A DNA stretch of 35,582 bases. Source: Candidatus Poseidoniales archaeon. GTDB taxonomy: Archaea > Thermoplasmatota > Poseidoniia > Poseidoniales > Thalassarchaeaceae. The notes beneath the pieces were generated by a model. The model saw only the letters and a program-made list of their open reading frames with translations. It was not told where the DNA came from and made no database searches. The stretch lies in assembly GCA_028821675.1 (NCBI GenBank), contig JAPKFG010000005.1, forward strand, positions 1-35,582, in the 5' to 3' direction. The translations under genes were made by a program, and so were the position numbers. Positions 15,025 to 25,676 of this stretch are shown here, piece after piece (the stretch's first letter is position 1; each line of letters opens with the position of its first letter).

Positions 15025-15059
15025 AAGACCGGCTCGCGATTGGCGAAGTTGTGATTACG

Positions 15060-18000
15060 ATGAAGAATGGCCAAACCACCCTTATGTTCCTCGTACTGTG
15101 TTTTGCCTCTCTCGCTCCAATGCTTGTTCCTCAGGCTGAACTCTCATCGTTTGAAGTTCAGGATACGTCCGGTCGGGATTTAATCGATGTGACGATTGTC
15201 GACATCGGCGTCGGTAATTCATCTGATGCCGCTGAGACTTGGATTCAACCGGGAGGTGACACCATGGATTACCTTCTCCGAGGCACACGATATGCGGCGA
15301 ATATCACCTTCAAGAATGCCGGAACAGGATTCTCCTCGGTTGCTGCCATTGGAACTTTGGAAGCCATTCATCCAATTGGTCACGTCATCCAAACCTGGAC
15401 CTTCAATCTCTCTCTTGCCGGTGGCCAACAGGATGTTCAAATCATTGAGTGGGTGCCCAATGCTGCACACAGCATCGTCGATGACGATGGGACGTTACAT
15501 GGTGGCATCATCTTCCGCGGTACGATTCAAACCACTGTCTCGGGTTTGGAGAATCCTGATGCGGAAGCAAACAACATCTACGAAGAGCAAGTCCCTATTG
15601 CGTTGTTGCACGATCCTATGGAGGGAACCTACACGTCCAACACCCCTATCTGGCTCCCATTGTCCTACACCGATCGGCAACAGCACACGGTTTATGGTGG
15701 AGGTACAGATTGGCAGACCGACAATTCATCTGCTGCAATAGGCAGCAAACATTGGCGCATTTCGGACCCGGGTGGTGGCAATTACGCTTCAAACACGGTG
15801 GACATGCTGAAATTGGGTTGGATTCCGACCGATGGAAGTTGTAATGATCCAGGGCACGGCATTGGATATGGTAGTATTGACTCGGATATTGAGAACGCCT
15901 ATGGTGTCCCCTTCTGTTGGCTCAACATTCTAGATTCGGATTACCGTTCAGTACATTGGGTGACTCAAGCATGGGGTTCGATGGCTGCAGGGGATGAGAT
16001 GGCCATGGAAGCGCTTCGTGGAATGAATACCATTGAAGAGCTCAACATGACCCAAGCCGGTATCTCAACAGCAGAGAATGATTGGACGCAAGTCATCTGG
16101 AACATGACCGACGTTCACAACGACAATTCTTACACGATTTCTTACTCAAAGATTGCCGATGCTTCAGGTGCAAACTCTGGAATCCACATCGACGATTTCA
16201 TTCTGTTTGCCGTCGAAGTGGTCGATGAATACACCATCACCCTCGATTGTGATGATTTGCTTCCCAACGCCTACGTTGTGATCCCTGCAGACCCCAACCC
16301 CCCATCCTTGTATTGTCATCTCACCAACAATGGATACAGAGAGGTCAATCTAAACATCTACACTGAGGTCTCGAATCAATCTTGGATGAATACCTATCCA
16401 CTCCGAATCGATAGCGACAACATGCTTGATCACGACAATTACGTCACTTTGAATCCTCTGGATGGAGAATCCACCACGTCGTTCTGGGTCAATCTCACTG
16501 TGCCCGAAGGAGCGAACGTTGAGACTCTCAATTGGACGATTTCATTCACGGACGATTACAATAGCCAAACCATGGGAGAGATGGTTCTTCCTGTCTCGGT
16601 TTCCTCTTCGTTTTCAGTTCGTCTGGACCAAGTTACACCTACATATCCAGCATTGACTATGGAGCCCGGTACCACAGGCGATATTCAGGTGAAGGTCAAA
16701 AATACGGGTAATCAATTGGCGGACTGGACACTTGGTGCCTACTTCGATAGCACACTATGGGGTGCACCCAACCTTGAATGGTACGAGGATTGGGATGGTG
16801 ATGGCAATGAAACACAACTGATGCAGATGTCCCTTGTCAAGGGCGAGGAGCGATTTGTTACTGCTCGCTTCCACGCGCCTGTACAAAATCCACCTGGGAT
16901 GGTTGAAATTTCCCTATTCGTTCAGGGTGTTGCTCCCGCTAATGCACAATCGGTTGAGAGAATTTACATCGATATTCCTGCGGTACAGGATGTCACGGTT
17001 TCCGCCTATGAATCGTCGATGACCGCATTGGCGGACGGCAATCTACGAACCATGTCCGTCACAATACGAAATGAAGGTAATTCGGCCGAGATTTTCGATC
17101 TGTCACTCAACGCAGACTGGCATATCGGTGCATCTCTGGCGACTCAAGTCACTGAGCTAATCGAGCCATTCGGCCAAGAGGTTGACATTACAGTCATCAT
17201 GCAGATGCCACAGGGCCTGATGCCGAATTTCTATCCAATCACGGTGACTGCTACTTCACAGACAGATTCAACTTACAGTGAAAATGGCCTATTCACCCTT
17301 GAAGTTCCAACGACATACATTGTTGAAGTTGAGGACAAGGATCTCACGGGTCAATCCTTTTCAGCGGGCGTCGAAGCGCGAACGATGAATTTTGAGATTT
17401 TCAACCACGGCAACGAGATCGATGCCTTCAACATTGGATTGCAGATGGATGACGGTGTCATCGCTGAGATTTCTAGTGGTGCCACGGATGCCCGTACCAT
17501 CTACATCGAACCTCAAACCTCGACCAATGTCACCCTGAGTTATTCATTCTCCTCTGGAGTTCAAGGCATGAAAGAACTCATTGTCACAGCCACCAGCGTC
17601 AAAGGAATTGACGACGGACAGACGGTCACATCTTCAGGTGTTGCCAATTTCCAAGTCGGTTCTCTGGGTTGGATTCGACTGACCAATGGACCATTGGTTC
17701 ACATCACGGAACCTGGTCCACACATGCTGTCTGTGGAAGTCCACAATCAGCACCCAAATGCGAATCAAGAGATTCATCTCAGTGTAACCGTGAATGATGA
17801 TGCGGTATGGAACTTGAAATCCGTCCGTGTGGTCACTGCCGATCGTCAATTTGAACTGGCCCCTGATGCAAAGCGCATCATCAATATCGAAGTCTATGTT
17901 ACTGAGCAAAATCTCATTAATTTCATTGAAGATTCAATGATTTTCACTGCAACACTGAAGGTTGACGCAACCGATGACAACACAGAGATTTCGATGGATT

Positions 18001-18458
18001 TCACTGCCGATCGATACATATCAGCAGCCGATTCTGATGAATCTGGTAGTTTTGGCGCAATCGCAAAGAATATCGCATACTGGGCGGCTGGACTCCTTTT
18101 CATTCTCGCTCTCGGCGTCGTCTTGGTGAAGATTCTCATTTCCACGGAGCATGAGGATGAAATTTCGTCTCTAGGTGGTTATGAGTCCAGTTTGGGTCTG
18201 CCAGATGCACCTACGCTCCCAGATGCACCGACTCTTCCCAGTGCAGATACAACGGCCAATTCGATGTACGGAGGCGCACAAGAGTTGTTCGCACAACCGG
18301 TGATGCCCACGCCACCAACCCCTGAACCATCCACGTTAGAACCGGCAGCAGCCCCATCTGGTCCTCTATTACCGGCCACAGGACTGCCTGAAGGATGGAC
18401 CATGGAGCAATGGGAACACTACGGAGAAGAGTATCTTCGCCGCCAAGGCGATGCATGA
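15060..18458 (+). CDS. large secreted/cell-surface protein with repeated beta-sandwich (NEW3/CARDB-like) domains and C-terminal TM
   Basis: Signal peptide MKNGQTTLMFLVLCFASLAPML; repeated NxGN/VxxxNxG segments; TM AYWAAGLLFILALGVVLVKI; C-terminal GLPEGWTMEQWEHYGEEYLRRQ. Track start 15051 is an alternative. Confidence 0.8.
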   Translation: MKNGQTTLMFLVLCFASLAPMLVPQAELSSFEVQDTSGRDLIDVTIVDIGVGNSSDAAETWIQPGGDTMDYLLRGTRYAANITFKNAGTGFSSVAAIGTLEAIHPIGHVIQTWTFNLSLAGGQQDVQIIEWVPNAAHSIVDDDGTLHGGIIFRGTIQTTVSGLENPDAEANNIYEEQVPIALLHDPMEGTYTSNTPIWLPLSYTDRQQHTVYGGGTDWQTDNSSAAIGSKHWRISDPGGGNYASNTVDMLKLGWIPTDGSCNDPGHGIGYGSIDSDIENAYGVPFCWLNILDSDYRSVHWVTQAWGSMAAGDEMAMEALRGMNTIEELNMTQAGISTAENDWTQVIWNMTDVHNDNSYTISYSKIADASGANSGIHIDDFILFAVEVVDEYTITLDCDDLLPNAYVVIPADPNPPSLYCHLTNNGYREVNLNIYTEVSNQSWMNTYPLRIDSDNMLDHDNYVTLNPLDGESTTSFWVNLTVPEGANVETLNWTISFTDDYNSQTMGEMVLPVSVSSSFSVRLDQVTPTYPALTMEPGTTGDIQVKVKNTGNQLADWTLGAYFDSTLWGAPNLEWYEDWDGDGNETQLMQMSLVKGEERFVTARFHAPVQNPPGMVEISLFVQGVAPANAQSVERIYIDIPAVQDVTVSAYESSMTALADGNLRTMSVTIRNEGNSAEIFDLSLNADWHIGASLATQVTELIEPFGQEVDITVIMQMPQGLMPNFYPITVTATSQTDSTYSENGLFTLEVPTTYIVEVEDKDLTGQSFSAGVEARTMNFEIFNHGNEIDAFNIGLQMDDGVIAEISSGATDARTIYIEPQTSTNVTLSYSFSSGVQGMKELIVTATSVKGIDDGQTVTSSGVANFQVGSLGWIRLTNGPLVHITEPGPHMLSVEVHNQHPNANQEIHLSVTVNDDAVWNLKSVRVVTADRQFELAPDAKRIINIEVYVTEQNLINFIEDSMIFTATLKVDATDDNTEISMDFTADRYISAADSDESGSFGAIAKNIAYWAAGLLFILALGVVLVKILISTEHEDEISSLGGYESSLGLPDAPTLPDAPTLPSADTTANSMYGGAQELFAQPVMPTPPTPEPSTLEPAAAPSGPLLPATGLPEGWTMEQWEHYGEEYLRRQGDA

Positions 18459-20247: not shown

Positions 20248-22176
20248 ATGAGTGCGGTCGTCAAAGTTTGGATTGATGAGGGCTGTATCGTCTGTGATGC
20301 TTGCGAAAACATTTGCCCCGAAGTCTTCCACGTCGAAGATGACACCTGTGTCATTGTCGATGGCGTGAATCCCAATGAATGGGGTGATGATATCATCGAG
20401 GCCGCAGAAGCTTGCCCTGTCGATGTCATCCTGTACGAAGTTGCAGGCGGTGACGAACCTACTACTGAAGAGGCTGCACCAGCAGTCGTAAATGAAGCAG
20501 CGCCCGCTGCCTCAGTAGAAGTTGCGGCGGCAGAAGTCGCATCCTCGGAATCCTCAGGCGATGGTGGATTGGATGAAATCCTGGCAGGAGATCGCGATTT
20601 GCACATTCTCTTTGGCAGTCAATCTGGTAACTCGGAAGGACTCTGTACTCTCATTTCAAAGAAAGCGGCTGCCTATGGTTTGGTTGGCCATGTTCACGAC
20701 ATGGACGGCTTCAATCTCGGCAGTATGTCTGGCATGAAACGGATTCTCATCGTCTGCTCGACATGGGGAGAAGGTGAACAGCCGGACAATGCTGAGGCAC
20801 TGTTCAATGAAGCCAAGGTCTCGTCCAAGATTCTCTCGAACAATCACTTCTCAGTCTGTGCACTGGGTGACACTTCCTACGAATTCTATTGCCAATCTGG
20901 CAAGGAATGGGACGAGATTCTTGAGAAGATTGGTGGAACTCGTATTCACGACCGTGTAGATTGCGATGTGGATTATGACGTCCCCGCCGCTGCTTGGATG
21001 GCCGACGCATTGTCTCGCATCGCGTGTGTTGATGATTCGGGAACATTCCACGAAGATTGTGTTGCTGAGATGTCGGCCCATGCTGCCGGCGATTCTGCAG
21101 CGGGTGGCAGTGGTGATGTTGCTACAGTGGTCATGCCCGAAATCCAATTGGTCGCGAGTATTTTCCGATACAATGCTGACACAGGTGAAACCGGTGTCGA
21201 TGCTTGGGCCTGCGCGGTCCCCGGGCATCACAGTGTACTCGATCTGCTTCGAACTCTCAAGGCAACACAGGATGGAACGCTGACATTCCGAGATGGTGCT
21301 GCCGATGATCCGACAACCGGTGTTTGTGTCAATGGGCGCCTTGTACTGCCGGGCCTCACGCGACTTTGCGATGTTGTCCGAGACAAGGGCGAAGGTGCAC
21401 AGATTCGTATCGAACCGATTGCAGCATACGATGTGATTCGTGATCTGATTGTTGATTACAGCTCATACGACAATCTCCGTACTGCATCCAAACCATGGTT
21501 CGTGGGAGGCCAACGTGAAGGAATCTATGCTGGAAAGTCGGTCATCGGTACGATGGACACTGTTGTCGCGACTGAATTGCATGTATCTAATGAAATTGCG
21601 AGCCCTCAACTATTGCACGCTGCTAGCGATGCTGTCCCCTACAATCGATCCTACATGGGGCCTGCTGTGGTCACTCATCTGTGGAACCGTTCATGCGACC
21701 CGAGAATCTCTGACAAATCACGTAAGGCAATCATTGAGAGTTTGGCGGGAACTAATGGCGTCAAGGCCGAGACAGACATGGCCAGCATACATCGACAAGG
21801 AACGATGGGTTCGACTGCTGCGAAATCTGTTCTGCAAGCCAAGACTGCAGTACTTGCTCACGATGGATACAATGGACGTCATGGCAAACATGTCTGGTGG
21901 TACACCTGGTCAATCAAGAGCAGTGGAAAGGTGAATGAAACCACACTCTATCGAACCGTTCTTGGACCGATGGGATTGGTCAACAATGCCCTATCAGGAG
22001 TTTCCGCGCGGATGATCTTCGGTTTCACAAGAACTGGCCGTCCAATGTTTAACGAGTTGTTGGGAATGCTCGCTCCACCTGCAGGAATTGGCAAGATGCC
22101 CAAGCAGTTCAATTCCTCCGTAGAGAATCACCATGAGGTGGTTTCAATCTTCAATGAAATGGACGGTCGATTCTGA
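20248..22176 (+). CDS. ferredoxin - flavodoxin - degenerate SdhB/FrdB-like fusion protein
   Basis: 642 aa; N-terminal CIVCDACENICPEVF; flavodoxin-like LHILFGSQSGNSEG...CSTWGEGEQPDNAE...ALGDTSYEFYCQSG; then SdhB-like landmarks (VLDLLRTLKATQDGTLTFRD, VNGRLVLPGLT, RIEPIAAYDVIRDLIVDYSSYDNL, YMGPAVVTHLWNRSCDPR). Confidence 0.8.
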   Translation: MSAVVKVWIDEGCIVCDACENICPEVFHVEDDTCVIVDGVNPNEWGDDIIEAAEACPVDVILYEVAGGDEPTTEEAAPAVVNEAAPAASVEVAAAEVASSESSGDGGLDEILAGDRDLHILFGSQSGNSEGLCTLISKKAAAYGLVGHVHDMDGFNLGSMSGMKRILIVCSTWGEGEQPDNAEALFNEAKVSSKILSNNHFSVCALGDTSYEFYCQSGKEWDEILEKIGGTRIHDRVDCDVDYDVPAAAWMADALSRIACVDDSGTFHEDCVAEMSAHAAGDSAAGGSGDVATVVMPEIQLVASIFRYNADTGETGVDAWACAVPGHHSVLDLLRTLKATQDGTLTFRDGAADDPTTGVCVNGRLVLPGLTRLCDVVRDKGEGAQIRIEPIAAYDVIRDLIVDYSSYDNLRTASKPWFVGGQREGIYAGKSVIGTMDTVVATELHVSNEIASPQLLHAASDAVPYNRSYMGPAVVTHLWNRSCDPRISDKSRKAIIESLAGTNGVKAETDMASIHRQGTMGSTAAKSVLQAKTAVLAHDGYNGRHGKHVWWYTWSIKSSGKVNETTLYRTVLGPMGLVNNALSGVSARMIFGFTRTGRPMFNELLGMLAPPAGIGKMPKQFNSSVENHHEVVSIFNEMDGRF

Positions 22177-23036
22177 TGGCAACTCGTTACGCATACCATC
22201 CGGGCAATGTAGCCCACAGCAATGCGATGGAAGTCGCCGATACCATGCCTTTAGCAGCGCATTCACTCGGCATTGAACTGGTTCCCCTTGAAGGCGCAAC
22301 CAGTTGTGGTGCAGGAATTATTCGCCAAGCTAACGCAGATTTGCAAATCGCCCTCAATGCCCGAACATTCGCACAAGCAGAAGCGATGGGACTCGACATC
22401 ATCACCTCTTGTGCAACAACAGCTGCCACATTACACGAAGATCTGATGGCGCTTCGCAATGACAACAGACTGAAGACCAAAATCAATGCAATCCTAGAAC
22501 GCAATTGTGGTTTGACTGTGAGCGGAGATGTCAATGTACACCATCTTCTACACGTGATTGTTGATGAAATTGGAATTGATGTTGTCAAAAATGCACTCAA
22601 GAATCCGTTTGACTTCAACATCGCAGGATACTATGGCCCCAACATTCAGCAAGAGGGGGCATGTGGAGGTGACGATGTCTTTGACCCCGATTATCTTGAA
22701 CAGGTGATTGCGGCCGTTGGTGGCATCCCGGTCGATTGGTCCAGTCGAACACAGAGTGTAGGCGTCCCAGGAATATTCTCAGAAGAAAAAACCGTCATGA
22801 AACAAACTTCCGCAGTCTTGGCTGATGCCAAATCAGAAGGCGCCCAATTGGTGGTCAGTGCTTGCAATCTGTCCCACATGCTGTTGGATGTCTATCAGGG
22901 CAAGGCCGGAAATACAACTGGGCAGGCAACCAAAGTCCCAGCCATCCATTTGACTGAACTTCTGGCATTCGCGTTTGGACATCACATTGATCGACTCGCA
23001 TTACTCAGAACACGCGTGATGGTTATCGGAGATTAG
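22176..23036 (+). CDS. HdrB/SdhE-like (CCG-domain fold) protein lacking most cluster cysteines
   Basis: 286 aa; YHPGNVAHSNAMEV, LGIELVPLEGATSCGAGI, AEAMGLDIITSCATTAATLHED, GYYGPNIQQEG, QLVVSACNLSHMLLD parallel HdrB segments. Overlaps the preceding gene's stop. Confidence 0.78.
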   Translation: MATRYAYHPGNVAHSNAMEVADTMPLAAHSLGIELVPLEGATSCGAGIIRQANADLQIALNARTFAQAEAMGLDIITSCATTAATLHEDLMALRNDNRLKTKINAILERNCGLTVSGDVNVHHLLHVIVDEIGIDVVKNALKNPFDFNIAGYYGPNIQQEGACGGDDVFDPDYLEQVIAAVGGIPVDWSSRTQSVGVPGIFSEEKTVMKQTSAVLADAKSEGAQLVVSACNLSHMLLDVYQGKAGNTTGQATKVPAIHLTELLAFAFGHHIDRLALLRTRVMVIGD

Positions 23037-25676
23037 TCACAGATCCCCGTGCAAAATCCGCACGATTTCTTGTGCTAGATTCACAGAAAGACCTGGGATT
23101 TGAACGATTTCCTCGTCGCTTGCTGTGGACAAGGCTGCCATCGTCGGCCATCTGTCAAGAATGCGAGATGCCAGAGCGGGTCCAATTCCCGGAACCTGTT
23201 CCAGCATTGAACGGGTGATTCCATGGGCTTCGCGCTGCCGAGCTTCTGACAACGGACCTGTTGTAGCATCTAGAATGGGTCCGCAAGAGTCAACATTTCC
23301 ATCTGCTGCAGAATCGGCGGCATCAATTGCCTCATTTTCGGCATCATTACTGACGTGGCCAGGGTGTTCAGCAGCCCTCAATCTCGCCTGAGCATTTTCA
23401 GAGAGGTGCTCCAACATTTTTGATTCTCTGCGAGCCGAGACAGCGATAAATCGTGCAGTTTCCGCCGTATCCGATGAAGTCACAACGGGCAAACCATAGT
23501 CGAATGTCAATGTGGCCAATGCACCCATGATGGCTTGGCCATGAACGGCCCGATGCTGAAACAGGTCACTTCCTTCAAGGATGAGCATGGCCCGAGGCGC
23601 CGCGCTAACCAATCTAGTTGCTTGTTCGAGCAGCCGACCATCCAGCAGACTGTCGACAAAATCTCGAGTTCCTTTGCGCTCGATTAGAATCCTGTCACTT
23701 ATCTTCACATCACCAACTGGAAGACTGACCACCTCTACGGTCAATCCTTCTTGTCGTAATCGAGCCGCCAGCGCACTTTTTTCTTCACGATGATCAATCG
23801 ACACGATAACTCCGTCTCCGTCAGGAATGTGGGCATCTGCATTGATGGATTGTAGCAACATCTCTGCTTCGATGACAGGCGCTTCAACAATCAGACGATT
23901 AGATGCCGTTTCTGAGGGATATGCATCGAGTCCAATCTGGCCGGTAGGCCTCATTTTTCTCGCGATATCTTTGGGTTCTGGTGCCTCTTCCACAGTGGGT
24001 TCGATTAGAATCACAGTTGGAGCCACAGAATCGTCGAGTTCTGGCGCCAATCGTTCGGATTCTGTCCGCAGAAAATCGGCGGCAGACGTACCATCATCCA
24101 GAGAAAATGCATCGAGATGCGATCCTTCTGTACGAATCGGTGCACCCCCTCGTTTTCTTCTCACCTGTTGAATTGAGCGAAACATTCGCTCTTCTCGGAA
24201 CTTGGCGGCGGCCAGTGCACCTTCGTCGCGGGTATCCTTGGCAATCAAGCGGTGGACCGTTCCAGCTCTCTGCCTACCCGTGCGGCCCCTGCGTTGAATC
24301 GTCCGAATCTCACTTCCTGTTGGTTCGTATGAAATCACTAAATCGGCATTGGGTACATCCAACCCCTCCTCGCCGACACTGGTAGCAACCAAAACGTTGG
24401 CTTGGCCAGAACGAAAAGCATCCAGACTCTCCAGTTGCTCTTTCTGACTCATTCCCGATGACCCCTCGCGACTGGCTTGCCCGACGAAGCGCTGAGGAAT
24501 TGCCCCCTCAATCCCCTCAAGAATCCTACAAATCTCTTCGACCGTATCTCTGAAATTGGCAAACACGATGATTCGACTTTCTGGACTTTCCTTGAATTGT
24601 CTTCTGACCATGCGCCGAACCATCGTCACCTTACTGTGAACCTCTTGCATTTCTGCTAGCGTTTCCTTGAGTTGATGGATGCGTGGATCAGCTGCGAATT
24701 CCTTGGTTGATTTCTTCACTTCCTTTCCATCTTGTCCCATCCTAGACAGGTACTCTCTACTGGCGGCTACACCTTGACAAAGAAGATACGATATAAGATT
24801 GTTCAATCTCAGGGCAATTCCATTGTCCTTCGCTGCTCTATAGCCAATTGATTCCCCATTCCCAATCGACACGGAAATGCGTCCTTGCGCTTCTTGTAAT
24901 CCTCCTGCTGTAATGTGTCCTTGGCGTGTGTAAAAGCCGAGTCTTCTCAGTCGATCAACGATTCTCTCAAGCCAGATTTTCAGTGGTTCAGCCAACAATC
25001 TCAATTCATCGGGTACTTCGACGACAACATCGTTGACTTCTAGCCCAGTCGCGTAGGGTTCTAAGAGCGAATCTCCAGAAGGTCGGGCGTGTATGTTCAC
25101 AATCTGCAATCGTTCGCATACTTCGTGGATATCAGCCTCAATATGACCCGGGCTTGCTGTGGCAGCGATGACCAAGCCACCGGGTTGTTGCTCTGCGAAC
25201 AAATCTCCGACTTGTGCCATAGCGTGATTTCCAGTGGCCCGATGTGCCTCATCGACAATTAGCAAGGCGACATCATCGAGACGAGTTACACCATTCTGCA
25301 CATCATTGCGAACAACCTGAGGGGTAGCGACAACAATCTTGGCTGATTCCCATATTGCCTGCCGTTTCTTTGGCGGAACCGCGCCCGTCAATGCCACAAT
25401 TTCCTGATTTTCCGGAAGGGCGAGCAGATTCTTCAAATCCGAGAGATGTTGATTGACCAAGGCATTGGTTGGGGCCAGCATAATACCTCGTCCTCCAGGG
25501 TCTCGGAGTCTTTCGGCGAGAACCATGACTTCAATCGGTGTCTTTCCCATTCCAGTTGGTAGTACCAACAAAGTCGATGCACTGAGGCAATGATCCAGTG
25601 CTGAGAGTTGATATGCTCGAGCCTCAATCGTCCCTTCGACGAGTAAGTCGTGACGTATCATAGCAGACATGGCCAT
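23037..25676 (-). CDS. hef: Hef-like DNA repair helicase/nuclease (SF2 helicase + ERCC4 nuclease + HhH)
   Basis: 879 aa; LPTGMGKT, VDEAHRATG, ATASPG, QRRGRTGRQ; nuclease VSIDHREE...LPVGDVKISDRILIERKGTRDFVDSLLDGRL (GDx(n)ERKx3D); C-terminal HhH VPGIGPALASRILDRW. Confidence 0.95.
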   Translation of the reverse strand: MAMSAMIRHDLLVEGTIEARAYQLSALDHCLSASTLLVLPTGMGKTPIEVMVLAERLRDPGGRGIMLAPTNALVNQHLSDLKNLLALPENQEIVALTGAVPPKKRQAIWESAKIVVATPQVVRNDVQNGVTRLDDVALLIVDEAHRATGNHAMAQVGDLFAEQQPGGLVIAATASPGHIEADIHEVCERLQIVNIHARPSGDSLLEPYATGLEVNDVVVEVPDELRLLAEPLKIWLERIVDRLRRLGFYTRQGHITAGGLQEAQGRISVSIGNGESIGYRAAKDNGIALRLNNLISYLLCQGVAASREYLSRMGQDGKEVKKSTKEFAADPRIHQLKETLAEMQEVHSKVTMVRRMVRRQFKESPESRIIVFANFRDTVEEICRILEGIEGAIPQRFVGQASREGSSGMSQKEQLESLDAFRSGQANVLVATSVGEEGLDVPNADLVISYEPTGSEIRTIQRRGRTGRQRAGTVHRLIAKDTRDEGALAAAKFREERMFRSIQQVRRKRGGAPIRTEGSHLDAFSLDDGTSAADFLRTESERLAPELDDSVAPTVILIEPTVEEAPEPKDIARKMRPTGQIGLDAYPSETASNRLIVEAPVIEAEMLLQSINADAHIPDGDGVIVSIDHREEKSALAARLRQEGLTVEVVSLPVGDVKISDRILIERKGTRDFVDSLLDGRLLEQATRLVSAAPRAMLILEGSDLFQHRAVHGQAIMGALATLTFDYGLPVVTSSDTAETARFIAVSARRESKMLEHLSENAQARLRAAEHPGHVSNDAENEAIDAADSAADGNVDSCGPILDATTGPLSEARQREAHGITRSMLEQVPGIGPALASRILDRWPTMAALSTASDEEIVQIPGLSVNLAQEIVRILHGDL

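Follow-up and report, generated by a model that had tools for sequence, protein, structure and literature searches.

An SdhB fold without iron–sulfur ligands, fused to a flavodoxin and often a ferredoxin domain, is conserved in Poseidoniales

The window analysed here is a stretch of 35,582 nucleotides from a Candidatus Poseidoniales archaeon (contig JAPKFG010000005.1). It encodes a 642-residue protein in which a ferredoxin, a flavodoxin and an SdhB-like part follow one another, as an earlier sequence-only reading had stated and as the ORF and its Pfam domains confirm; the SdhB landmarks and the replaced cluster motifs quoted in that reading were all found in the sequence. We refer to the SdhB-like part as SdhB*, to the HdrB/SdhE-like neighbour as SdhE* and to an SdhA-family protein encoded at another locus as SdhA*. 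The features are as follows, in window coordinates except for the last.

20248–22176, + strand: ferredoxin–flavodoxin–SdhB* (Fd-Fld-SdhB*) fusion protein, 642 aa (ORF, Pfam, NCBIfam)
20272–20430, + strand: single-cluster [4Fe-4S] ferredoxin domain, residues 9–61 (Fer4_13, alignment)
20431–20589, + strand: linker rich in Ala, Glu and Ser, residues 62–114, expected to be flexible (sequence)
20605–20973, + strand: CysJ-like flavodoxin domain, residues 120–242 (Flavodoxin_1, cysJ model, alignment)
20974–21144, + strand: linker from flavodoxin to SdhB*, residues 243–299, starting where the Pfam match stops (Pfam, sequence)
21145–21891, + strand: SdhB* fold (beta-grasp plus helical domain) without Fe-S cysteine ligands, residues 300–548 (Foldseek, ligand columns)
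21892–22173, + strand: C-terminal extension of SdhB*, residues 549–642 (alignment, breakpoint in locus L125)
22174–22178, + strand: TGATG, SdhB* stop and SdhE* start with a 1-base overlap (sequence)
22176–23036, + strand: SdhE*, HdrB/SdhE-like subunit, 286 aa (NF042965, HdrB match in the PDB)
Outside the window, locus L163 (G000:C32:1991-3583): SdhA*, SdhA family, conserved across Poseidoniales

The Pfam matches in the fusion exceed their cut-offs, with 39 bits against 24.5 for Fer4_13 (residues 9–61), 83.5 against 25 for Flavodoxin_1 (residues 120–242) and 42.5 against 27 for Fer2_3 (residues 304–407, E = 7e-11). The flavodoxin domain most resembles the FMN domain of CysJ (cysJ model, 9e-36). 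NCBIfam SdhB models match residues 297–576 (E = 4e-17) yet remain far under their cut-offs, and TIGR00384 scores 50.7, below its cut-off of 88. The gene order thermosome, SdhB*, SdhE*, Hef and ribosomal L3 operon is syntenic throughout Poseidoniales. The TGATG overlap between SdhB* and SdhE* fits translational coupling. At the corresponding junctions of many orthologs (e.g. loci L015 and L115), the sequence reads in frame RF-stop-G.., and the SdhB* stop is followed by a G-rich stretch a few codons 5' of the SdhE* start. These junctions suggest translational coupling and a Shine-Dalgarno site that overlaps the stop.

By modelling residues 300–642 with AlphaFold2 and comparing the model with the PDB by Foldseek, we found first that the SdhB fold is kept. 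The pLDDT was ~88 across the first 240 residues, and the best 32 PDB matches were all SdhB/FrdB chains, with TM-scores (target) of up to 0.84 and a best E-value of 1e-12; the model shows the beta-grasp and helical ferredoxin-like domains of SdhB, which upholds the similarity noticed in the sequence-only reading for this region. SdhB* could be aligned to its C-terminus, including the extension past the last cluster, most clearly against SdhB from the SdhA-SdhB-SdhE operons of another Thermoplasmatota family, f6. Second, when 77 Poseidoniales orthologs were aligned to 12 ligand columns set by nine canonical SdhB, cysteine occupied only three of the 924 ligand cells, namely one isolated cysteine in the [2Fe-2S] columns (351, 354, 357, 369) and two in those of the second and third clusters (450, 453, 456, 460, 508, 511, 514, 518). 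S460 and E508 each stand at one former ligand position in all 77 sequences, and C360 (...GVCVNG), the sole cysteine close to the first motif, lies off every ligand column. Third, dN/dS was 0.02–0.06 for SdhB*, 0.02–0.05 for SdhE* and 0.02–0.03 for the adjacent thermosome. Since the ligands are lost in 77/77 orthologs at such a low dN/dS, neither decay nor artefact accounts for their absence, which goes far beyond chance, and a loss confined to a single genome, which the earlier reading had named as the case that would undo it, gives way to a fixed one. Together with the order-wide synteny, these data indicate that the SdhB* gene is functional and old.

The ortholog set combines 47 loci of the GTDB species collection with the matches from a profile search of 390 Thermoplasmatota genomes. 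SdhB* is present in nearly all sampled genomes of two Poseidoniales families, f1, which is Thalassarchaeaceae, and f2, presumably Poseidoniaceae, and its cysteine-less state recurs in dozens of independent assemblies, including the single-contig genome G015. The profile search found no SdhB* in eight genomes of f3 (presumably MGIII), a family of the same class, and in the rest of the phylum outside f1 and f2 it found only canonical-looking SdhB with weak scores. Besides SdhB*, 12 of 12 genomes carry one canonical SdhA–SdhB pair each, and the genome of the window itself encodes a membrane subunit, SdhA and an SdhB with all its cysteines; canonical complexes I and II have been reported for MGII (PMC6336850). 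SdhB* is not a canonical SDH subunit, since it lacks the Fe-S ligands and the genome has a complete SDH at another place. The co-encoded normal succinate dehydrogenase, which the sequence-only reading had not taken into account, makes SdhB* part of what would be an extra, repurposed complex.

The domains fused in front of SdhB* have kept their cofactor sites. The ferredoxin ligands C13, C16, C19 and C57 are conserved in 31/31 Fd domains, and the extra cysteine of the CxxxCP motif, which forms a disulfide in related ferredoxins, varies between orthologs. The FMN loops of the flavodoxin (GSQSGNSE, STWGEGEQPDN and LGDTSYEF) are intact, with the phosphate and isoalloxazine loops kept in all orthologs aligned there, and the domain is predicted to form an intact FMN site. 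SdhB* is preceded by Fd-Fld or Fld-Fld or, in fewer orthologs, by a lone Fld. Some of the lone-Fld cases are assembly fragments. Loss of the ferredoxin is usually coupled with a second flavodoxin in its place. The sequence-only reading, in which SdhB serves as a scaffold and the fused domains supply the redox cofactors, therefore stands as regards the kept fold, the fixed loss and the intact cofactor sites, which may serve a working electron path, but needs correction as regards the ferredoxin, which is optional and often swapped; the constant parts are flavodoxin, SdhB* and SdhE*. In 7/7 Poseidoniales genomes tested the SdhB* fusion is the sole Flavodoxin_1 protein, and no member of this family was found in the two f3 genomes and the one f6 genome tested. 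Proteins of the 2-oxoacid:ferredoxin oxidoreductase (POR) family are encoded in 7/7 Poseidoniales genomes tested and are a plausible source of reduced ferredoxin.

The earlier reading did not cover SdhE* and SdhA*, which have also lost canonical sites. SdhE* matches the NCBIfam SdhE model NF042965 at 1.6e-36, under the cut-off of the model, and HdrB is its best PDB match (1e-30); a joined SdhB*-SdhE* model reaches a TM-score (target) of 0.85–0.88 against HdrB in the PDB, so that SdhE* is an HdrB homolog with the HdrB fold. In canonical SdhE/HdrB proteins, ten cysteines bind two noncubane clusters. The 10-cysteine motif described for E-type SdhE (PMC2680327), with two CX~30CCX~35CXXC sets, is absent from SdhE*. 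None of the Poseidoniales sequences examined retains the second set (S194, V195 and S233, with C230 kept), and SdhE* of the window has lost the first set as well (N11, S43, T82), leaving only C44, C79 and C230. Eight sequences (six f2, two f1), all with Fd-Fld, keep the first set intact (type I), and all others are type II, with N11, S43 or G43, C44 or D44, and T/S/A82. C79 is kept wherever SdhE* is readable, locus L028 being unreadable at two positions, and C79 and C230, equivalent positions of the two halves, are universal in readable sequences. In the tree of SdhE*, built with the trait columns removed, type II forms one clade (support 100/99) that contains the bulk of both families, and a monophyletic f1 or f2 was rejected (AU p = 0.004 and 0.001, respectively). 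The SdhE* tree suggests either that the first set was lost once and lineages exchanged the gene, or that ancient paralogues are involved, and SdhB* gives a less clear tree.

Two observations support pairing of SdhB* with SdhE*. First, the joined model, for which in-frame pairs were used with the TGA read as a residue (a modelling linker that implies no readthrough), gave a pTM of 0.80 and thus places the two proteins in a defined arrangement; the C-terminal extension was poorly predicted. Second, two genomes of one genus, G336 (locus L125) and G067 (L119), have sister-like flanking thermosome, Hef and L3 genes, whereas in G336 the segment from the start of the SdhB* extension through SdhE* is 72–100% identical per 40-column block to another genus. 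The extension and SdhE* were thus swapped in L125 as a single block with the flanks unexchanged, so that they travel together, as expected if they touch.

SdhA*, on contig C32 of the same genome, is distinct from the canonical SdhA of that genome and from aspartate oxidase. Strong-scoring matches to it occur in ~124 of 136 Poseidoniales genomes, the search returning none in about a dozen draft Poseidoniales genomes. Beyond the order, it best matches SdhA from the f6 SdhABE operons (E ~1e-43), and its f3 matches are weaker. In 30/30 aligned SdhA*, the catalytic arginine of SdhA is replaced by L, I or M, and the histidine of HYMMGG and the arginine of HGANRLG are absent; the HPT motif keeps its histidine in 13/30 and its threonine in 0/30, and the histidine for covalent FAD is gone. 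The glycines of the FAD fold and the LYAAGD..SG.HG region are largely kept in the same 30 sequences. SdhA* has a dN/dS of 0.04–0.10 and evolves faster than SdhB*. Substitution patterns show purifying selection on SdhA*, SdhB*, SdhE* and the fused domains. From its common origin and distribution with SdhB*, we infer that SdhA* may bind SdhB*.

E-type SdhABE complexes act as succinate:quinone or 8-methylmenaquinol:fumarate reductases in Wolinella, Campylobacter and Acidianus (PMC2680327). They comprise the same three folds, SdhE likewise adjoins SdhB, and SdhB of the f6 complexes aligns with SdhB* over its full length, C-terminal extension included. By sequence homology, the putative Poseidoniales complex is derived from E-type SdhABE. 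Unlike those enzymes, it has an SdhB* without Fe-S ligand sets, an SdhE* without the 10-cysteine motif and an SdhA* without the dicarboxylate site, encoded at a separate locus, and it has gained flavodoxin and ferredoxin domains. The defining features of SdhABE are thus missing, and the names SdhB, SdhE and SdhA should not be given to these subunits.

Methanogen TfrAB (thiol:fumarate reductase) and HdrBC (heterodisulfide reductase) also combine an SdhB/HdrC-like and an HdrB-like module. A TfrB model matches SdhB* weakly, and HdrB and TfrB hold cysteine-bound clusters whereas nearly all those cysteines are gone from the Poseidoniales counterparts. In mycobacterial EtfD (PDB 9ojn), the CCG domains are altered from HdrB, possibly as an aerobic adaptation according to its authors (PMC13083937), a published precedent in which CCG clusters were remodelled to work aerobically; EtfD is, however, a membrane protein with a linear [3Fe-4S], a noncubane [4Fe-4S] and two cubane clusters. 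CysJ of sulfite reductase has the FMN domain most like the fused flavodoxin and uses it as a shuttle tethered on a linker, but the Poseidoniales fusion lacks the FNR-type FAD/NADPH domain and has the SdhB-fold scaffold. The joined SdhB*-SdhE* model also matched, over its whole length and 633 alignment columns, PDB 3kwl (TM-score (target) 0.69, E = 8e-13), a structural-genomics entry for an uncharacterised protein of Helicobacter pylori (a chain of 514, for which Foldseek lists 498 residues). This single chain, with marginal sequence similarity (E = 0.44) and no fused flavodoxin seen, may be another SdhB-HdrB-type protein related to SdhB*-SdhE*. The sequence-only reading knew of no described protein with this architecture, and in the open-access literature searched we likewise found no paper on it; the passages found in a study of archaeal fusion families (PMC11237513) do not mention it.

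Taking these observations together, we propose, at about an even chance, that a remodelled E-type SdhA*-SdhB*-SdhE* complex is fixed in Poseidoniales and that its Fe-S wire has been replaced by a tethered flavin shuttle. The anatomy of scaffold and shuttle is well supported, and the substrate and electron route are what we infer from it. SdhB* would act as a rigid base to which SdhE*, and perhaps SdhA* too, is bound. Reduced ferredoxin (e.g. from 2-oxoacid:ferredoxin oxidoreductases) would bring electrons into the fused ferredoxin or the first flavodoxin, from which they would pass to the flavodoxin adjoining SdhB*; this domain would swing in the fashion of CysJ-type reductases and hand them to the FAD of SdhA* or into the SdhE* pocket, where an acceptor would be reduced. 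Since SdhE* of most lineages has no obvious redox group, with only C79 and C230 universal, the acceptor may lie outside SdhE*. Where water is poor in iron and life is aerobic, it would be an advantage to shed clusters that are oxygen-labile and costly in iron, and a second flavodoxin in place of the ferredoxin would fit such conditions too. Counted against the shuttle are the separate locus of the SdhA* gene, its faster evolution and the lack of a match to it in a dozen draft genomes. We give somewhat less than an even chance to a fuller statement, that SdhABE was dismantled in steps and rebuilt as a flavin-wired complex with the tethered flavodoxin as its wire, a new substrate and housekeeping-like conservation throughout the order. 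In this reading the SdhB clusters and one SdhE cluster would have been lost first, the other SdhE cluster next and, in some lineages, the ferredoxin last, the extreme form having zero iron.

Other readings of the same data are unlikely to differing degrees. The one that survives best, at rather better than one chance in five, takes SdhA*B*E* for a structural or regulatory assembly whose flavodoxin and ferredoxin sense redox state or iron, or for a platform on which the cell's flavodoxin is docked; this would agree with the loss of canonical sites in all three subunits and with the single flavodoxin protein per genome. However, the FMN and [4Fe-4S] sites are strictly kept, a lost ferredoxin mostly gives way to a second flavodoxin, which points to redox work, and SdhA* retains its FAD-fold motifs.

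We give marginally less credit to SdhE* as a thiol/disulfide-type enzyme fed by the ferredoxin or flavodoxin, in which the noncubane cluster (type I) or C79 and C230 (type II) would turn over a disulfide or some other sulfur compound while SdhB* merely positions the shuttle. SdhE* is clearly HdrB-like, the five cysteines of the first cluster are intact in the six f2 and two f1 type I sequences, and the universal C79 and C230 could form such a site, but flavodoxins normally give single electrons. Moreover, the bridging catalytic cysteines of HdrB, Cys81 and Cys234 (PMC13083937), align with T/S/A82 in type II and with S233 in all sequences.

Far less probable is that other cofactors, e.g. zinc or mononuclear iron, occupy the old cluster sites, such as H8/H14/C44/C79 in f1 SdhE* or D44/C79/H83 in f2 SdhE*: in the type II f1 alignment, two new histidines, H8 and H14, never vary and stand beside the kept C44 and C79, but the residue sets of f1 and f2 are unlike. 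Finally, nothing was found in favour of pseudogene decay or a sequencing artefact, which the ortholog survey across independent assemblies, a dN/dS of ~0.03 and the full synteny throughout Poseidoniales rule out.

Fe-S chains are commonly regarded as irreplaceable in complex II-type enzymes, and SdhB* lacks the entire chain under strong selection, with flavin carriers added to it, in archaea that rank among the most abundant of surface seawater. This suggests that flavins have taken over from a respiratory electron wire in a way hitherto undescribed. If the flavin-shuttle model is true, the complex shows in practice how a respiratory-type complex can be rid of iron, and the type I, type II and double-flavodoxin forms are living intermediates, so that both the sequence of losses and what each stage does can be tested directly. 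The case for a wider novelty is credible, provided that flavin-shuttle function is shown. SdhB, HdrB/SdhE and SdhA annotations are misleading for these genes.

Some minor features of the region were also recorded. In a single assembly (L038:5965-8955), one ORF spans Fld-Fld-SdhB*-SdhE* without the conserved SdhB* tail; this may be an assembly deletion and carries no weight as evidence. SdhE* adjoins a Hef-type helicase-nuclease gene (23037–25676, − strand). In L013, L023 and L040 we found no more of it than a ~590-aa ORF that corresponds to the helicase part, and L120 and L124 have it divided between two ORFs. Upstream of the thermosome, positions 15051–18458 (+ strand) encode a large protein with a weak CARDB match marginally below the Pfam cut-off, syntenic and diverged (~30% identity) across Poseidoniales.
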